Shown piece after piece: positions 36-51,737 of a stretch of DNA of 64,000 nucleotides. A program made the position numbers and the translations under genes. How positions within the stretch are numbered: the first letter of the stretch is position 1; each line of letters begins with the position of its first letter. The stretch covers positions 62,001-126,000 of the forward strand of contig JAGAWU010000057.1 of the NCBI GenBank assembly GCA_017941235.1, in the 5' to 3' direction. Under the pieces are notes generated by a model. The model worked only from the letters and a program-made list of their open reading frames with translations, searched no databases and was not told the origin of the DNA. Source of the stretch: Bacilli bacterium (GTDB lineage Bacteria; Bacillota_I; Bacilli_A; RF39; UBA660).

Positions 36-2507
36 ATGAAAAGGAAAATAACAGGACTATTGTTATTATTAATTACAATAGTTGGTGTAGTTTTTGGCAT
101 TACTAAAGTTAATGCTGAAAGCTATCAAGGAACAATAAGAGAGGGAGCTTGGATTCCTGGATATTGGATAAGTAAAAAAGATGGTAGCACAATAAGTTAT
201 CATCAAGCTAGATGGCTTAACAATTCAGAAGGAGAAGCAATATATTGTATTCAACCATACGTACGAATTGTAGATGGAACGACATATACTATTACAAATG
301 AAGATATGCAAATACTTGCGGGATTATCTCAAGAACAATGGCAGATGGTTACAAGATTAGCATATTATGGTTATGGATATAATGAAAATGGATATAATCA
401 TAGTGATGCAAAATGGTATGTAGCAACTCAAATGTTAATTTGGAGAACAGTTGATCCAGCAAGAGCAAATGATATGTATTTTACTAATGGACTAAACGGA
501 ACAAGAAACGATAGTATTTTAGTAAGTGAAATGAATGAAGTAAAAGCACTTGCAGAATCTCATTCAGCTAGACCAAATTTAAATGTACCAAGTGAAGCTA
601 TAATTGGAAATGAATTTAATGTTTCAGATAGTAATGGAGTATTAAATAAATTTAGAGTAACTAATGTAACTGGAGGAACTGCTAGTATTAATAACAATAC
701 TTTATATGTTAATCCAACTGAAGTAGGAGATATGAAAATAACATTATCTCGTGAAGCTAATATGGCTCATAAAACAATTTATTTATACTTTGCTACTTCA
801 TCTCAAAACTTAATGAGAAGAGGAGACTTAGATCCAATTAACATTAATCTAAATGTTAAAGTTTTAGGTGGTAAAGTAACAATCAATAAAGAAGATAAAG
901 TTACAAAAGAAGCACAAGGAGAAGCTACTTTAAAAGGTGCTACTTATGGTATTTATGATGAATCTGGAACATTAATAGATAAAATAACTACTGGTGATGA
1001 TGGAAAAGTTACATCTGGATATCTTCCTAAATTAGGTAAGTTCTACTTACAAGAAATATCTCCAAGTGAGGGTTATAAATTAGATAATACAAAATATGAT
1101 TTTGAAACTACTAAAGACAGTTTAGAGCCATCTGTAACTGTTAAAGAAGAAGTAATTGAGAATCATTTTAATTATGTAAAAGTATATGCTAGTGATGAAA
1201 CAGGAGTTATGACTCCAGAAGAAAATGTTGATTTCGCAGTATATAATAAGAACAATGAATTAGTAATGAATTTAACTACTGATAAAGATGGAATTATTAA
1301 TTTCAAATTACCTTATGGAACATATACATTAAAACAAATGACATCTCCAAAAACACATAAGAAAATGGAAGATTTAACTTTAACAGTTAAAGAAGCTGAT
1401 GTAAAAATTAATAAAGTTATTTCAAATGGAGAATATAAAGCAAAACTAAGAGTAGTTAAAATTGATAAGGAAACTAAAGAAGTAATTAAAAGAGCTGGAA
1501 TTAAATTCAAAATATTAGATACTAAAACAAATGAATATGTATGCCAAACAACATCATATCCAAAAGCTACTATTTGTGAATTTGAAACAGATAAAAACGG
1601 AGAATTTATAACTCCATTTGTACTTAATAGTGGAACTTATAAATTAGAAGAAGTAGATCAAAAAATAGATGGTTATTTATGGAATAAAGAATCTCATGAA
1701 TTTACTATTGATGAAGATGCTAATTTAAGAACTGATTCTGAATATGGAGTAATATTTGATACCGATTTTGAAAATCAAAGAGTTAAAGGTGAAATAAAGA
1801 TTGAAAAAGTTGGTAACAATGTTCAAGTTGCAGAAGAAGGATTGATACTATTCCAAGAACCATTAGAAGGTATTAAATTCTGTGTATTTACTAAAGATGG
1901 TAAAGAAGTTAAATGTGGAACTACTGATAGTGAAGGACATTTAACATTTAAAGATTTAGAATTAGGAGAATACTATGTTCAAGAAATTGAAACATTAGAA
2001 AACTATGTTTTAGATCAAACAAAACATGAGATAATTCTTAAGTATAAAGATCAATATACTCCAGTTATTACATATGAAACTATATTAGAAAATCACGTAC
2101 CAACTGGTAATTTAGAGTTTACTAAAACAGATTTTTCAGAATCAAAAACATTACCAAATACTACAATTGAGATTTATTCAGAGAACGATATTTTAATTTA
2201 TAGTGGTAAAACTGATGAGAACGGAAAAATAGTAATAGATAAATTACCTATTGGTAAATTCTATATTTTAGAAAAAGAAGCTCCAGAAGGATATGAATTA
2301 AATGAGGAAAAAATGTGGTTTGAAATAAAAGAAGATGGAGAAATAATTAAAGCTACAATGAAAGATGAACAAATAATTGAAGTACCTGATACTGAAAAGA
2401 ATAAAGATTATAAAGAATTAATAGGTGGTATTGCATTAATGTTAATCGGAACAGGAGTAGTAATATATGGAATCAAAAGAAACAAAAAGAATAAAGAAAA
2501 AACATAA
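36..2507 (+). CDS. Thioester/CnaB-repeat surface adhesin, sortase substrate
   Basis: An 823-residue secreted wall protein. Residues 1-27 form a signal peptide (MKRK, hydrophobic core, VNAES). The N-terminal domain has the hallmarks of a Gram-positive thioester domain: Cys71 in YCIQ and Gln132 in ATQMLIW, the pair that forms the internal Cys-Gln bond used for covalent host attachment in this family. About five SpaA/CnaB-type beta-sandwich repeats follow (roughly 275-360, 385-460, 470-565, 590-675 and 690-770), each closing with a YxLxE-type strand. The C-terminus has VPDTE, a membrane helix and a KRNKKNK tail, so the sorting signal is non-canonical. A GGAGG lies 7 nt before the ATG. It overlaps the adjacent sortase gene by 41 bp, so the two are probably enzyme and substrate. 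It appears to belong to the ICE. Confidence 0.85.
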   Translation: MKRKITGLLLLLITIVGVVFGITKVNAESYQGTIREGAWIPGYWISKKDGSTISYHQARWLNNSEGEAIYCIQPYVRIVDGTTYTITNEDMQILAGLSQEQWQMVTRLAYYGYGYNENGYNHSDAKWYVATQMLIWRTVDPARANDMYFTNGLNGTRNDSILVSEMNEVKALAESHSARPNLNVPSEAIIGNEFNVSDSNGVLNKFRVTNVTGGTASINNNTLYVNPTEVGDMKITLSREANMAHKTIYLYFATSSQNLMRRGDLDPININLNVKVLGGKVTINKEDKVTKEAQGEATLKGATYGIYDESGTLIDKITTGDDGKVTSGYLPKLGKFYLQEISPSEGYKLDNTKYDFETTKDSLEPSVTVKEEVIENHFNYVKVYASDETGVMTPEENVDFAVYNKNNELVMNLTTDKDGIINFKLPYGTYTLKQMTSPKTHKKMEDLTLTVKEADVKINKVISNGEYKAKLRVVKIDKETKEVIKRAGIKFKILDTKTNEYVCQTTSYPKATICEFETDKNGEFITPFVLNSGTYKLEEVDQKIDGYLWNKESHEFTIDEDANLRTDSEYGVIFDTDFENQRVKGEIKIEKVGNNVQVAEEGLILFQEPLEGIKFCVFTKDGKEVKCGTTDSEGHLTFKDLELGEYYVQEIETLENYVLDQTKHEIILKYKDQYTPVITYETILENHVPTGNLEFTKTDFSESKTLPNTTIEIYSENDILIYSGKTDENGKIVIDKLPIGKFYILEKEAPEGYELNEEKMWFEIKEDGEIIKATMKDEQIIEVPDTEKNKDYKELIGGIALMLIGTGVVIYGIKRNKKNKEKT

Positions 2508-46719: not shown

Positions 46720-48117
46720 ATGAAAAAAGTATTTAAAATAATTATATCTTTGTTATTAGTTTCTTTTTGTATTTATTTTTTTAAGATAGTTACTGATTTA
46801 AATTTGATTCCTACTAAGTTTTACATTGTTACAATTGTAATTACTTCTATATTAACTATATTAAGTATTGTTTTCTTATTTATTAAGAAGACTTGGACTA
46901 AAGTAGTTAGTATTATATTAATGATTATACTTTTTTGTATATTTATTTTTGGTATATTCTTTTGTAATAAAATAATTTCTTTTTTTGATAAAGGGTTTAA
47001 TAATAATTTAGTTGAGACTACTACATATGATGTTATTGTACTTAAAAATAGTAATTATAATAATATTAAGGATTTAAATGATAAAAGTATTGGTTATCTT
47101 TCTAAGAATAAGAGTGTTAATTCTAATTTGAAGGGTAGTTTTAACTTTAAAGAATATGATAGTTCTATTAATATGTATAATGATCTTTCTAATAATAAGA
47201 TTGATTCTATACTTATTAATGATGCTTATTTAGATATTTTTAATGAGCATTATAAAGGTTTTGATGATTCTATTAAAGTGATTTATCATTTTGATAAGAA
47301 AAAGATAAATACTAAGAAGAAAGAAGTAAAAAAGGTTGAACCTATTAATATACTTATTTCTGGTAGTGATTCTAGAAGTTATAGTATAGTTAATAATTCT
47401 AGAAGTGATGTAAATATGATTATGACTATTAATCCTACTACTAGAAAAGTACTTCTTACTAGTATACCTAGAGATTATTATGTTAAACTTCATGGTACTA
47501 GTGGTCTTAATGATAAGCTTACACATAGTGGTATATATGGTATGGATATGACTAGAGAAACTTTAGAAGATGTGTTTAATATTAAGATTGATTATACTAT
47601 TAAAGTTGGGTTTAACTCTGTTATTAACTTAGTTAATTCTATTGGTGGAATAGATGTTTATTCTGATATTACTTTTAATTCTTCTCATATGAAGGGTTGG
47701 GTTGTAAAACAAGGTACTAATCATTTTAATGGAGAACAAGCACTTGCTTTTTCTAGGGAAAGATATGCTTATATTGAAGGTGATAGACATCGTGTTCAAA
47801 ATCAACAATTAGTACTTGAAGCTATATTTAATAAAGTTTCTTCTGATAAAAAATTAATTTCTAAGTATGATGAAATACTTAAGGCTTTATCTGATTTTTA
47901 TATAACTGATGTACCTGATAGTTATGTAAAACTTCTTGTTAAAAAAGAACTTACTGAAAATGGTAAATGGACTGTAATTAAACAAAAAGTAGATGGGGAA
48001 GGGGCTTATCTTGAAACTTATTCAATGCCTGGTAGAAAATTATATGTAATGATTCCTAATCAAGATACAGTAAATGAATGTTCAAATCAAATTAATAAAG
48101 TAATTCTTTCTGAATAA
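46720..48117 (+). CDS. LytR-CpsA-Psr family wall-polymer ligase
   Basis: A 465-residue protein with three N-terminal membrane helices (up to about residue 95), a middle extracellular domain (about 105-205) and the LCP catalytic domain. LCP motifs are ILISGSDSRSYS, RSDVNMIMTINP, LLTSIPRDYYVKL, NDKLTHSGIYG, VGFNSVINLVNSIGGIDVYSD and FSRERYAYIEGDRHRVQNQQ; the Arg and Asp residues that bind the polyprenyl pyrophosphate are all present. It transfers teichoic acid or capsule to peptidoglycan. GGAGG precedes the ATG. Confidence 0.94.
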   Translation: MKKVFKIIISLLLVSFCIYFFKIVTDLNLIPTKFYIVTIVITSILTILSIVFLFIKKTWTKVVSIILMIILFCIFIFGIFFCNKIISFFDKGFNNNLVETTTYDVIVLKNSNYNNIKDLNDKSIGYLSKNKSVNSNLKGSFNFKEYDSSINMYNDLSNNKIDSILINDAYLDIFNEHYKGFDDSIKVIYHFDKKKINTKKKEVKKVEPINILISGSDSRSYSIVNNSRSDVNMIMTINPTTRKVLLTSIPRDYYVKLHGTSGLNDKLTHSGIYGMDMTRETLEDVFNIKIDYTIKVGFNSVINLVNSIGGIDVYSDITFNSSHMKGWVVKQGTNHFNGEQALAFSRERYAYIEGDRHRVQNQQLVLEAIFNKVSSDKKLISKYDEILKALSDFYITDVPDSYVKLLVKKELTENGKWTVIKQKVDGEGAYLETYSMPGRKLYVMIPNQDTVNECSNQINKVILSE

Positions 48118-48121
48118 TAAA

Positions 48122-48155
48122 AGAACTGATAAATTTTTATCAGTTCTATTTTTTT
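48122..48155. terminator. Bidirectional terminator between LCP gene and lexA
   Basis: AGAACTGATAAA (48122-48133) and TTTATCAGTTCT (48136-48147) form a 12-bp stem with T-runs outside on both strands; it serves the two convergent genes. Confidence 0.9.
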
Positions 48156-48771
48156 AAAAAGTTCTATATAGTCCTATTGCTTTGCCTAGTATTGTAACAT
48201 TATCTAATATGATAGGTGCCATTGTATCATTTTCTGGTTGCAATCTAAAGTGTCCATTTTCTTTATAAAAAGTTTTAACAGTTACTTCATTATTATCATT
48301 CATTGCTACTACTGTTTCACCATTAGTTGCAGTGTTTTTTCTTTGTACTATTAATATATCACCATCATATATTCCAACATTAATCATACTTTCACCACTT
48401 ACTTTTAAAGTGAATACTTCACCTTTACCTGAAACTATTTCAGCTGGAAGTGGGAAGAATTCATTAGGAGTTTCAATTGCTTCAATTGGAGTTCCTGCTG
48501 TTACTTTTCCAAGAAGTGGAACTTCAACTATATTTTCATCCTTTTCTTCAAATTCATTTTCTACTAATAATTTAATTGTTCTATTTTTACTATTTCCTTT
48601 TTCTATGTATCCTTTTTCTGCTAACTTATTCAAATGAAAATGAATAGTTGCGGGACTTGATAAGTGAGCTGCTTCACCAATCTCTCTTACTGTAGGTGGA
48701 TATCCATTTTTTGCTAAGAGTTTCTTTAAAACTTGTAAAATATTATATTGACTATCTGTAAGTTTTTCCAT
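48154..48771 (-). CDS. lexA: LexA repressor
   Basis: A 205-residue SOS repressor. The N-terminal winged helix (DSQYNILQVLKKLLAKNGYPPTVREIGEAAHLSSPATIHFHLNKLAEKGYI) binds DNA. The self-cleavage site Ala-Gly is in GKVTAGTP; the catalytic Ser is in KVSGESM and the Lys in EVTVKTF. The start at 48771 follows AAGGAGG; an earlier in-frame start has no ribosome site. Its promoter overlaps a LexA-like box, so it should repress itself. It is transcribed away from a small membrane-protein gene that shares the regulatory region. Confidence 0.96.
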   Translation of the reverse strand: MEKLTDSQYNILQVLKKLLAKNGYPPTVREIGEAAHLSSPATIHFHLNKLAEKGYIEKGNSKNRTIKLLVENEFEEKDENIVEVPLLGKVTAGTPIEAIETPNEFFPLPAEIVSGKGEVFTLKVSGESMINVGIYDGDILIVQRKNTATNGETVVAMNDNNEVTVKTFYKENGHFRLQPENDTMAPIILDNVTILGKAIGLYRTF

Positions 48772-48791
48772 AGGTTCCTCCTTATATTTAC

Positions 48792-48869
48792 ATATTAACA
48801 TAGTAGTTTACATTTGTCAAACAAATGTTTAAATAATATATTGACACGAACAAGTGTACGTAGTACAAT
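48792..48869. promoter_or_regulatory. Divergent SOS promoters with two LexA boxes
   Basis: Rightward promoter: TTGACA (48841-48846), 17 bp, TACAAT (48864-48869), with the spacer starting CGAACAAGTGTACG (48847-48860), one mismatch from the Bacillus LexA consensus. Leftward (lexA) promoter: TTGACA (complement of 48815-48820), 17 bp, TAATAT (complement of 48792-48797), with a second LexA-like site CAAACAAATGTTTA (48818-48831) over its -35. Confidence 0.82.
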
Positions 48870-48899
48870 TAATTTGTAAGATGAAGGGAGATGTAGAAT

Positions 48900-49061
48900 A
48901 TGGAAAAAGTTTTAAAGAAAGGTTTATGTTTAATAGCAATTTATGTAATAGCAATTGTTTTAGTATTTTTGATGAGTGAAAGAATTACAAGATTAGATAG
49001 AGGTACAGGTCAAGATTTTAGAAATACTAATGGTTCTGTCTCCGTTACTTTGGAAAAATAA
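48900..49061 (+). CDS. 53-aa SOS-controlled single-helix membrane protein
   Basis: A short gene divergent from lexA with AAGGGAG before the ATG and a strong terminator right after the stop. The product has a basic start (MEKVLKKG), one membrane helix (LCLIAIYVIAIVLVFLMS), and a short polar extracellular tail (ERITRLDRGTGQDF, NTNGSVSVTLEK). The LexA box in its promoter says it is induced by DNA damage. In Bacillus the lexA-divergent yneA encodes a membrane cell-division inhibitor; this gene has the same position, regulation and topology but no LysM domain. A division-inhibitor role is therefore an inference from context. Confidence 0.72.
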   Translation: MEKVLKKGLCLIAIYVIAIVLVFLMSERITRLDRGTGQDFRNTNGSVSVTLEK

Positions 49062-49092
49062 AGTTGTTCCTTATTGGAATAACTTTATTTTT
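49056..49092 (+). terminator. Terminator after the SOS membrane-protein gene
   Basis: AAATAAAGTTGTTCC (49056-49070) pairs with GGAATAACTTTATTT (49076-49090), nearly perfect, with a T-rich end. Confidence 0.88.
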
Positions 49093-49124
49093 GTGTTACG
49101 ATAGATATCGAAAGTGGTGATAAG

Positions 49125-51737
49125 ATGAATAAGATAATATTAGTAGATGGAAATAACCTGTTATTTAGAAGTTTTTATGCAACTAGTTATACAGGTAATA
49201 TTATGAGAAACTCTAAAGGATTTCCTACTAATGCTATATATGGTTTTATAAATATGATTAATAAAATTATAGATGAAGAGAAACCATCTTTTATGTTAGT
49301 TGCTTTTGATAAAGGTAAAACATTTAGACATGATAAATATGATGATTATAAAGCTGGAAGAGCAGCTATGCCAGAAGACTTGAAACTTCAATTCCCAGTT
49401 AGTAAAGAAATACTTGATGCAATGGGAATATTTCATTATGAAATAGACAATTATGAAGCAGATGATATAATTGGTACACTTTCTAGAATAGCAACTGAAA
49501 GAGAAGATTTTATAGGTACAATAATTAGTAGTGATAAAGATTTATTACAATTAATTAATGATGAAATAGATGTTAAACTTTTAAAACAAAATGATCATAT
49601 AAGAATGACTAAAGAAAAATTTAGGGAAATATATGAAACTGATCCTATACATATGATAGATTTAAAAGCACTTATGGGTGATTCTAGTGATAATATACCA
49701 GGAGTTAAAGGAATAGGAGAAAAAACTGCTATTAAGTTAATTAGTGAGTATGGAGATATAAATAACTTATATGAACATATAGATGAAATTAAAGGAAAAA
49801 CAAAAGAAAAACTAATTGATGGAAAAGAATCATGTTTTATGAGCTATGATATTGCTACTATATATAAAGAAGTACCAATAGACTTTGAATTAGAAGATAC
49901 AGTTTATAAAGGTATTAATGAAGATAAACTTAGAGATATGCTTACAGAACTTGAATTTCATTCACTTCTTAGAAAATATGATTTAACTGCTAAAGAAAAG
50001 AAAATAGATAAAGAAGTTAAGAATTATCAAATTAAAGATATTAAAGATTTTGATTCTTCTAAAGAATTTAGTTATTATTTAGAACTTAATTCTTTTAATT
50101 ATCATAATGCTGAAGTAATAGGTTTATCTATTTGTGATGGAGAAAATATATATTTTATAGAAAAAGATGATATAATTAACCATTTAGATATATTTACATC
50201 TAATACTAATAAATTTACTTATGATTTAAAGAAGAGTTATGTTTTCTTTAAGAAAAACTATGGTATAGAAATTAAAAATACTACTTTTGATACTATGATA
50301 GGATGTTATTTACTTGATTATACTGTTAAAGATGATATAAGTTTTATAGCACAGAATTTTTCTTATGATATACCTTTATATGAAGATTTTTATGGTACAG
50401 AAAAGAGAAAAAAAGAAGTAGATAGTGATTCTTTAAGAAAAGTTATTTGTGATAAAGCAGCATTTATATTTGATACAAGAGTTGAAATACTTAAGAAGAT
50501 AGAAGAGTTTAATGAAACAGATTTATTTTTAGATATAGAACTTCCACTTGCTTATGTACTTAGTGATATGGAACTTGAAGGGATTACAGTAAAACGCGAG
50601 GTATTAGATGAGATGGGAGAAGAATTAAAAGTAGAAATTGATCGTTTAGAAAAAGAAATATATTTCTTATCAGGAGAGGAATTTAATATAATGTCTCCTA
50701 AACAACTTGGAGATATATTATTTGTAAAACTAGGTATTAAATATCCTAAGAGAAAATCTGATGATAAGAGTTTTTCTACCAGTAAAGAAATACTTGATAA
50801 ACTTGTTGATGTTCATCCTATAATTAATAAAATATTAGAGTATAGAGCTATAACTAAGCTTTATACAACTTATATAGAAGGTTTAAAACCTGAAATAAAA
50901 GAGGATGGAAAAGTACATACTATATTTAATCAAACATTAACACGTACAGGTAGACTTTCTAGTGTTAGTCCTAATCTTCAAAATATTCCTATTAGAGATG
51001 AGTTAGGCAAAAAAATAAGAAGAGCATTTGTGGCTTTAGATGATTCAGTTTTACTTTCAAGTGATTATTCACAAGTAGAACTTAGAATGTTTGCTCATGT
51101 AAGTGGGGTAGAGAAGTTAAAGGAAGCTTTCCTTAAAGATATTGATATACATACTAAAACAGCTAGTGATATATTTCATGTTCCTCTTGAAGAAGTAGAT
51201 AAAAATATGAGAAGGACTGCTAAAGCAGTTAACTTTGGTATACTTTATGGAATTAGTAGTTTTGGACTTGCAGAGGATTTACATATTCCTGTTAAAGAAG
51301 CCAAGAGTTTTTTAGATAATTATTTAGAGACTTATTCAGGCGTTAAGGAATATATGGAAGAAGAAAAGAATAAAGCATATAGTAATGGATATGTTTTAAC
51401 TATTATGAATAGAAGACGTAATTTAGAAGAGCTAAAATCTAAGAACTTTATTATACGTTCTCAAGGGGAAAGAATGGCTCTTAATACACCAATACAGGGA
51501 AGTAGTGCTGATATACTTAAAAAAGCTATGGTTGATATATTTAATGAATTTAATAAACGTAATTTAAAGAGTAAAATGTTAATACAAGTACACGATGAAT
51601 TAATATTTAATGTATTAAATAGTGAACTTGATGTAGTAAGAGAAATAGTTAGAGATAAGATGGAGAATGTTTATAAGCTTTCGGTTCCATTAAAAGTAGA
51701 TATTGAAACTGGTGTTAATTGGTATGATGCTAAATAA
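49125..51737 (+). CDS. polA: DNA polymerase I
   Basis: An 870-residue family A polymerase. Residues 1-290 are the 5'-3' exonuclease (KIILVDGNNLLFRSFYA, DNYEADDIIGTL, ALMGDSSDNIPGVKGIGEKTA). Residues about 300-480 are the 3'-5' exonuclease fold, but the catalytic DxE is lost (YLELNSF), so no proofreading is expected, as in Bacillus. The polymerase has motif A DYSQVELRMFAHVSG, motif B RRTAKAVNFGILYGIS and motif C QVHDELIFNV. It fills gaps during repair and lagging-strand synthesis; its place next to lexA fits a repair neighbourhood. Confidence 0.97.
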   Translation: MNKIILVDGNNLLFRSFYATSYTGNIMRNSKGFPTNAIYGFINMINKIIDEEKPSFMLVAFDKGKTFRHDKYDDYKAGRAAMPEDLKLQFPVSKEILDAMGIFHYEIDNYEADDIIGTLSRIATEREDFIGTIISSDKDLLQLINDEIDVKLLKQNDHIRMTKEKFREIYETDPIHMIDLKALMGDSSDNIPGVKGIGEKTAIKLISEYGDINNLYEHIDEIKGKTKEKLIDGKESCFMSYDIATIYKEVPIDFELEDTVYKGINEDKLRDMLTELEFHSLLRKYDLTAKEKKIDKEVKNYQIKDIKDFDSSKEFSYYLELNSFNYHNAEVIGLSICDGENIYFIEKDDIINHLDIFTSNTNKFTYDLKKSYVFFKKNYGIEIKNTTFDTMIGCYLLDYTVKDDISFIAQNFSYDIPLYEDFYGTEKRKKEVDSDSLRKVICDKAAFIFDTRVEILKKIEEFNETDLFLDIELPLAYVLSDMELEGITVKREVLDEMGEELKVEIDRLEKEIYFLSGEEFNIMSPKQLGDILFVKLGIKYPKRKSDDKSFSTSKEILDKLVDVHPIINKILEYRAITKLYTTYIEGLKPEIKEDGKVHTIFNQTLTRTGRLSSVSPNLQNIPIRDELGKKIRRAFVALDDSVLLSSDYSQVELRMFAHVSGVEKLKEAFLKDIDIHTKTASDIFHVPLEEVDKNMRRTAKAVNFGILYGISSFGLAEDLHIPVKEAKSFLDNYLETYSGVKEYMEEEKNKAYSNGYVLTIMNRRRNLEELKSKNFIIRSQGERMALNTPIQGSSADILKKAMVDIFNEFNKRNLKSKMLIQVHDELIFNVLNSELDVVREIVRDKMENVYKLSVPLKVDIETGVNWYDAK

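Follow-up and report, generated by a model that had tools for sequence, protein, structure and literature searches.

A membrane microprotein gene divergent from lexA encodes a candidate SOS cell-division inhibitor in uncultured Bacilli

What is made by a very short gene that diverges from lexA in an uncultured member of the Bacilli, and could its product arrest cell division during the SOS response? The characterized Bacillota genes at this lexA-side place, yneA and sosA, encode division inhibitors, and YneA and SosA are both single-pass proteins that are encoded beside lexA and controlled by the SOS response (PMC6851548, PMC13396833). A preliminary description of the window (the whole stretch of 64,000 nucleotides analyzed here, from an assembly of 1.56 Mb) had proposed that a 53-codon gene beside lexA is a new inhibitor of this kind. 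We asked whether the gene is real, whether LexA is likely to control it, and which of the functions open to a small SOS-linked membrane peptide fits it best.

A short coding gene between lexA and polA

The 53-codon open reading frame (ORF; positions 48900-49061, plus strand) lies between the divergent lexA and polA and encodes a 53-aa peptide with a single predicted membrane helix, MEKVLKKGLCLIAIYVIAIVLVFLMSERITRLDRGTGQDFRNTNGSVSVTLEK. The lexA gene (48154..48771, minus strand; 205 aa with the stop included; start at 48771, ribosome-binding site GGAGG) was identified by the NCBIfam model TIGR00498 (219 bits) and by Pfam PF01726 and PF00717. A longer lexA ORF from 48801 was rejected as the start, since the GGAGG site serves 48771 and the LexA proteins of relatives align from MEKLT. 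The lexA promoter (48792..48820, minus strand) consists of a −35 element TTGACA (48820-48815), a 17-bp spacer, and a −10 element TAATAT (48797-48792). The microprotein promoter (48841..48869, plus strand) consists of TTGACA (48841-48846), 17 bp, and TACAAT (48864-48869), and a ribosome-binding site, AAGGGAG (48884..48890, plus strand), stands nine bases ahead of the ATG.

Indeed, the TTGACA-N17-TACAAT promoter is near perfect, with 11 of 12 matches, and its spacer starts with a LexA box, CGAACAAGTGTACG (48847..48860, plus strand; one mismatch versus CGAAC-N4-GTTCG), both as first reported. A second LexA-like box, TAAACATTTGTTTG (48818..48831, minus strand), which is also kept in relatives, overlaps the lexA −35 element at 48820-48815, in agreement with the preliminary description of a site over the lexA promoter. 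An intrinsic-terminator-like hairpin with a T-run (49054..49092, plus strand; −19.4 kcal/mol, z −8.07), which that description had not mentioned, overlaps the end of the ORF, extends past its stop codon, and separates the gene from its downstream neighbor polA (49125..51737, plus strand; 870 aa). We dropped this terminator as a defining part of the locus, since most relatives lack the hairpin. On the far side of lexA and convergent with it, a gene that by eye is LytR-CpsA-Psr-like (46720-48117) hints at a walled cell.

Because the ORF is short, the DNA is AT rich, and identity between genera is low, the frame might be open by chance, with the LexA-controlled transcript alone being of consequence. 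Against this, dN/dS is well below 1 in all pairs (0.09 to 0.45 for pairs with finite dS and peptides at least 55% identical), and pooled independent pairs show 0.49 differences per synonymous site and 0.15 per nonsynonymous site. The best homologues are free of internal stops, the codon usage of the ORF resembles that of neighboring genes (0 of 1000 shuffles were as good), ribosome-binding sites are present, and a comparable ORF occurs in 132 of 171 lexA flanks versus 0 to 1 in shuffles, as described below. It is near certain that the ORF is a real protein-coding gene, and for practical purposes the noncoding reading is refuted.

The peptide is predicted to insert in the membrane with its N terminus inside and its C terminus outside. 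Net charge averages +2.0 before the helix and −1.0 after it, and the positive-inside rule favors the N-in/C-out orientation in 123 of 139 cases. An AlphaFold2 model built on the family alignment has a single helix at residues 2 to 36 (mean pLDDT, 74.5), where confidence is high as far as about residue 30, and the tail is loose; the predicted helix extends past the membrane by about 10 residues, and the tail is short, at about 20 residues (about 25 after the helix core). The frame, its hydropathy, this model, and the conservation in relatives all agree with the single-helix gene originally proposed. Scanned against Pfam and NCBIfam, the peptide and 28 homologues gave chance matches only, each in one member, and no LysM domain; the earlier statement that the protein has no LysM and is unlike YneA, SidA, or SulA in sequence accords with this.

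Conservation of the gene and its LexA box

Because AT-rich DNA yields such sites by chance, we rejected the LexA box from the window alone as proof of SOS control: the window is not enriched in boxes that depart from GAAC-N4-GTTC at one position or none (9 sites versus 9.5 expected from shuffles). What raises the box above chance is its conservation in relatives. We searched 291 genomes of the same family for homologues and read the best 30 loci. In 29 of these 30, the homologue is divergent from lexA, at the same place and in the same direction, and polA is downstream of the peptide in 28 of those 29; in L008, the contig ends first, and in L028, another gene intervenes. All 29 loci examined retain both the lexA-side box (CAAACAAATGTTT / GTCAAACAAATGTTT or a close variant) and a peptide-side promoter box like TTGACACGAACAwwTGTATG or its near variants. 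The preliminary description had named absence of the frame from relatives as one outcome that would refute it, and the shared place, direction, and LexA boxes, along with purifying selection, support the proposal. Those relatives that have names are uncultured Bacilli, most of them from animal guts, and include Candidatus Onthousia, Scybalousia, and Pelethosoma. In one genus (L028 / L098), the gene between the peptide and polA encodes 292 aa, is ORF6N-like by eye, and lies at ~327 from the lexA start.

Within the 1.56-Mb genome, positions 48847-48860 are the sole zero-mismatch match to CGAACANNYGTNYG, a pattern partly derived from family sites and searched for genome-wide with one mismatch allowed. 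In the same genome, recA and ruvA (ruvA-ruvB) each have a motif of this type about 70 bp upstream. The genome-wide total of CGAACANNYGTNYG matches was not above that of a reversed-pattern control, and lone matches elsewhere are untrustworthy. SOS control of the microprotein gene through LexA is predicted and very likely. In one relative, L177, a gene of 293 aa (596-1474, minus strand) that is KilA-N-like by eye and has no NCBIfam match is preceded, at a distance of 27 bp, by a LexA-box-like site, CAAACAAATGTATG; this may be a further SOS gene, or the site may be a chance one.

LexA turned up in 126 of the 144 genera sampled. We scanned 171 distinct lexA 5′ flanks of the family, at least 330 bases each and drawn from many genera and 80 named loci, under fixed rules (an ORF of 38 to 65 aa with a ribosome-binding site and one helix with a mean Kyte-Doolittle value of at least 1.6). 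A single-helix ORF of 42 to 60 aa, whose median distance from lexA to its start is 131 bases, was found in 132 of the 171 flanks, which come from metagenome-assembled genomes related by descent and are not independent events. The same scan found 1, 0, 0, 0, and 0 in dinucleotide shuffles and 0 on the opposite strand. The promoter LexA box scores at least 8/10 in 124 of the 132 ORF-bearing flanks and 6 to 7/10 in the other 8.

The 39 flanks without an ORF call divide by the second box, which is absent in 27 and present in 12. In 7 of these 12, a transmembrane (TM) micro-ORF falls just outside the thresholds (L135, L145, L155, L174, L252, L274, and L277); in L133, the TM peptide is the second gene, behind a 62-aa ORF, and the same 62-aa ORF comes first behind the LexA box in L244 and L255; in L116 and L264, the second box is present and no intact ORF was seen. 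Across the 171 flanks, the second LexA box and the peptide ORF are thus either both present or both absent, a pattern that links the LexA site with the microprotein gene. Since 27 of the 171 flanks have neither box nor gene, the peptide is not indispensable in the lineage. The 62-aa ORF of L133, L244, and L255 (MEYYTINDIQILTGY...) is soluble, with a weak similarity to the Rok winged helix that is below the cutoff. In three flanks without the peptide (L100, L136, and L159), a gene of more than 180 aa (MSMATLVYTFGD... / MNNATLSYVIGS...) is divergent from lexA and has no second LexA box.

Y15, R28, and L32 are invariant across 28 peptides: the Tyr is inside the helix, and the other two form an Arg-x-x-x-Leu just after it. 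In L174 and L274, natural 34-aa versions end just after the membrane helix, with the LexA box intact; given these two relatives, the peptide may have no need of its tail.

Beyond the family, the majority of the other genomes sampled within the class gave no LexA, and weak profile matches elsewhere in the class (G517, G645, and G702) were rejected as chance, the fetched loci having no LexA gene. In family f11 (L184, L188, and L192), a TM peptide of 57 aa whose sequence is unrelated (MFNK.CL.IY.YR...) is divergent from lexA, with LexA-like boxes upstream and a DUF896 (ynzC) gene next. The f11 peptide is a second, independent lexA-side membrane microprotein of the same design. This design was not seen in family f8.

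Comparison with known inhibitors and SOS peptides

The gene that follows the peptide varies. It is polA in this genome and, in other genera, tkt (transketolase) in 41 and yneF (UPF0154) in 6 of the 132 flanks; polA, which tkt or yneF replaces in those genera, is probably a neighbor outside the microprotein's function. In Bacillus subtilis, the gene order is lexA, yneA, yneB, ynzC, tkt, yneF. Because tkt or yneF follows the peptide in other genera, as in that order, the peptide occupies the place of yneA, and the resemblance to Bacillus yneA drawn in the preliminary description is strengthened.

With YneA of B. subtilis, the peptide shares its place beside lexA, SOS control (here from sites), and a single N-in/C-out helix (predicted here). 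In YneA, the helix binds TM7 of FtsW and the LysM domain binds peptidoglycan; the helix alone localizes but does not inhibit, so that inhibition needs the extracellular LysM on peptidoglycan (PMC13396833), whereas the peptide has no LysM. AlphaFold 3 models place YneA against FtsW, and ChiZ, SosA, and SidA likewise with low confidence; in the model of SosA, which has no LysM, an extended helix sits close to the cavity of FtsW (PMC13396833), and the helix extension predicted for the peptide resembles it.

SosA of Staphylococcus aureus is also divergent from lexA, with LexA/SOS control (here from sites), a single helix, and an extracellular C terminus (predicted here). It is like the peptide, too, in its lack of a LysM, its conserved membrane-proximal segment, and its fast sequence divergence (PMC6851548). 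The two differ in length, with 77 aa in SosA versus 53 aa in the peptide (34 to 60 in relatives), and by published residues, the essential Y40/E41/D44/H45 pattern of SosA being absent from the peptide (PMC6851548). In addition, SosA shortened to 37 residues is inactive, whereas relatives of the peptide with 34 aa exist in nature.

More distant parallels come from another phylum. DivS of Corynebacterium is an SOS-linked small membrane division inhibitor. So is ChiZ of Mycobacterium tuberculosis (PMC6851548, PMC13396833), which differs in having a LysM domain, and neither NCBIfam nor Pfam has a model that connects the peptide with ChiZ or DivS. Our best reading, drawn by analogy, is that the peptide adds a new and minimal member to the YneA/SosA kind, the membrane SOS cell-division inhibitors encoded divergently from lexA; it stands in the place of these inhibitors and would work like them, and we do not class it as YneA or as SosA.

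A small SOS-induced membrane peptide could also be a toxin or dormancy factor, lowering the proton-motive force and slowing growth with no binding to the divisome. The size, single helix, and LexA control of the peptide are compatible with this, since TisB and DinQ of E. coli are LexA-controlled single-helix peptides of similar size. TisB is encoded away from lexA, is controlled by an antisense RNA, and acts on the membrane itself. The same three features distinguish DinQ, which in E. coli is a toxic single-TM peptide under SOS regulation (PMC3567139). In the window, the leader is short, with about 30 bases from the −10 element to the ATG, and no known RNA family was found in 48000-49400 on either strand (Rfam, E ≤ 0.1); an undescribed antisense RNA may still be present. 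Specific conserved residues (the Tyr in the helix and the Arg and Leu outside it) under purifying selection suggest a protein partner, and the position next to lexA, with tkt/yneF following, is one that a division inhibitor occupies. We regard a toxin of the TisB/DinQ type as improbable.

Position in itself indicates no more than SOS control and a place in common, so that the peptide might instead regulate another SOS-related process, such as a protease, a transporter, or nonseptal wall synthesis. Such a role is unlikely in our estimation, as the Bacillota genes yneA and sosA at this same place encode division inhibitors (PMC6851548, PMC13396833).

Proposed function in the SOS response

On balance, we think it probable, by analogy with YneA and SosA, that the microprotein is an SOS-induced cell-division inhibitor. 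Counted against this assignment are the absence of similarity to any characterized inhibitor, the absence of a LysM domain and of the SosA residues, the short tail, the inactivity of SosA at 37 residues when natural relatives here have 34, and the 27 flanks that have neither box nor gene. In an undamaged cell, LexA bound to the box between the −35 and −10 elements would silence the gene. Upon DNA damage, RecA would trigger LexA self-cleavage, and the peptide would be made and enter the membrane, its lysine-rich N terminus predicted to lie inside and its short tail outside. If it acts as YneA and SosA do, the extended helix, on which the conserved Arg-x-x-x-Leu lies, would attach to the synthase of the septal cell wall, FtsW being the likeliest candidate, and septation would be held while DNA is repaired. 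As LexA returned, a CtpA-type protease would clear the peptide.

The genome encodes three SEDS proteins (FtsW/RodA; PF01098), five transpeptidase-domain proteins (PF00905), and a CtpA-type protease (TIGR00225, 316 bits, above the cutoff), so that a YneA/SosA-like mechanism has both a putative target and a putative clearing enzyme; LysM proteins are present elsewhere in the genome. A bolder proposal would have the lone helix with its Arg-x-x-x-Leu extension, down to 34 aa, as the smallest known inhibitor, blocking division lineage-wide during the SOS response by acting on FtsW within the membrane with no extracellular domain, unlike YneA. We put this forward tentatively and consider it rather doubtful.

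For a large group of gut Bacilli that are uncultured and have small genomes, the locus probably provides a DNA-damage checkpoint that Pfam and NCBIfam models do not recognize. The place beside lexA retains a fast-evolving membrane microprotein even after loss of sequence similarity and of the LysM domain. If division inhibition is true, these peptides, as inhibitors that are very short by nature, would help to probe which part of a YneA/SosA-type protein is needed to stop FtsW.
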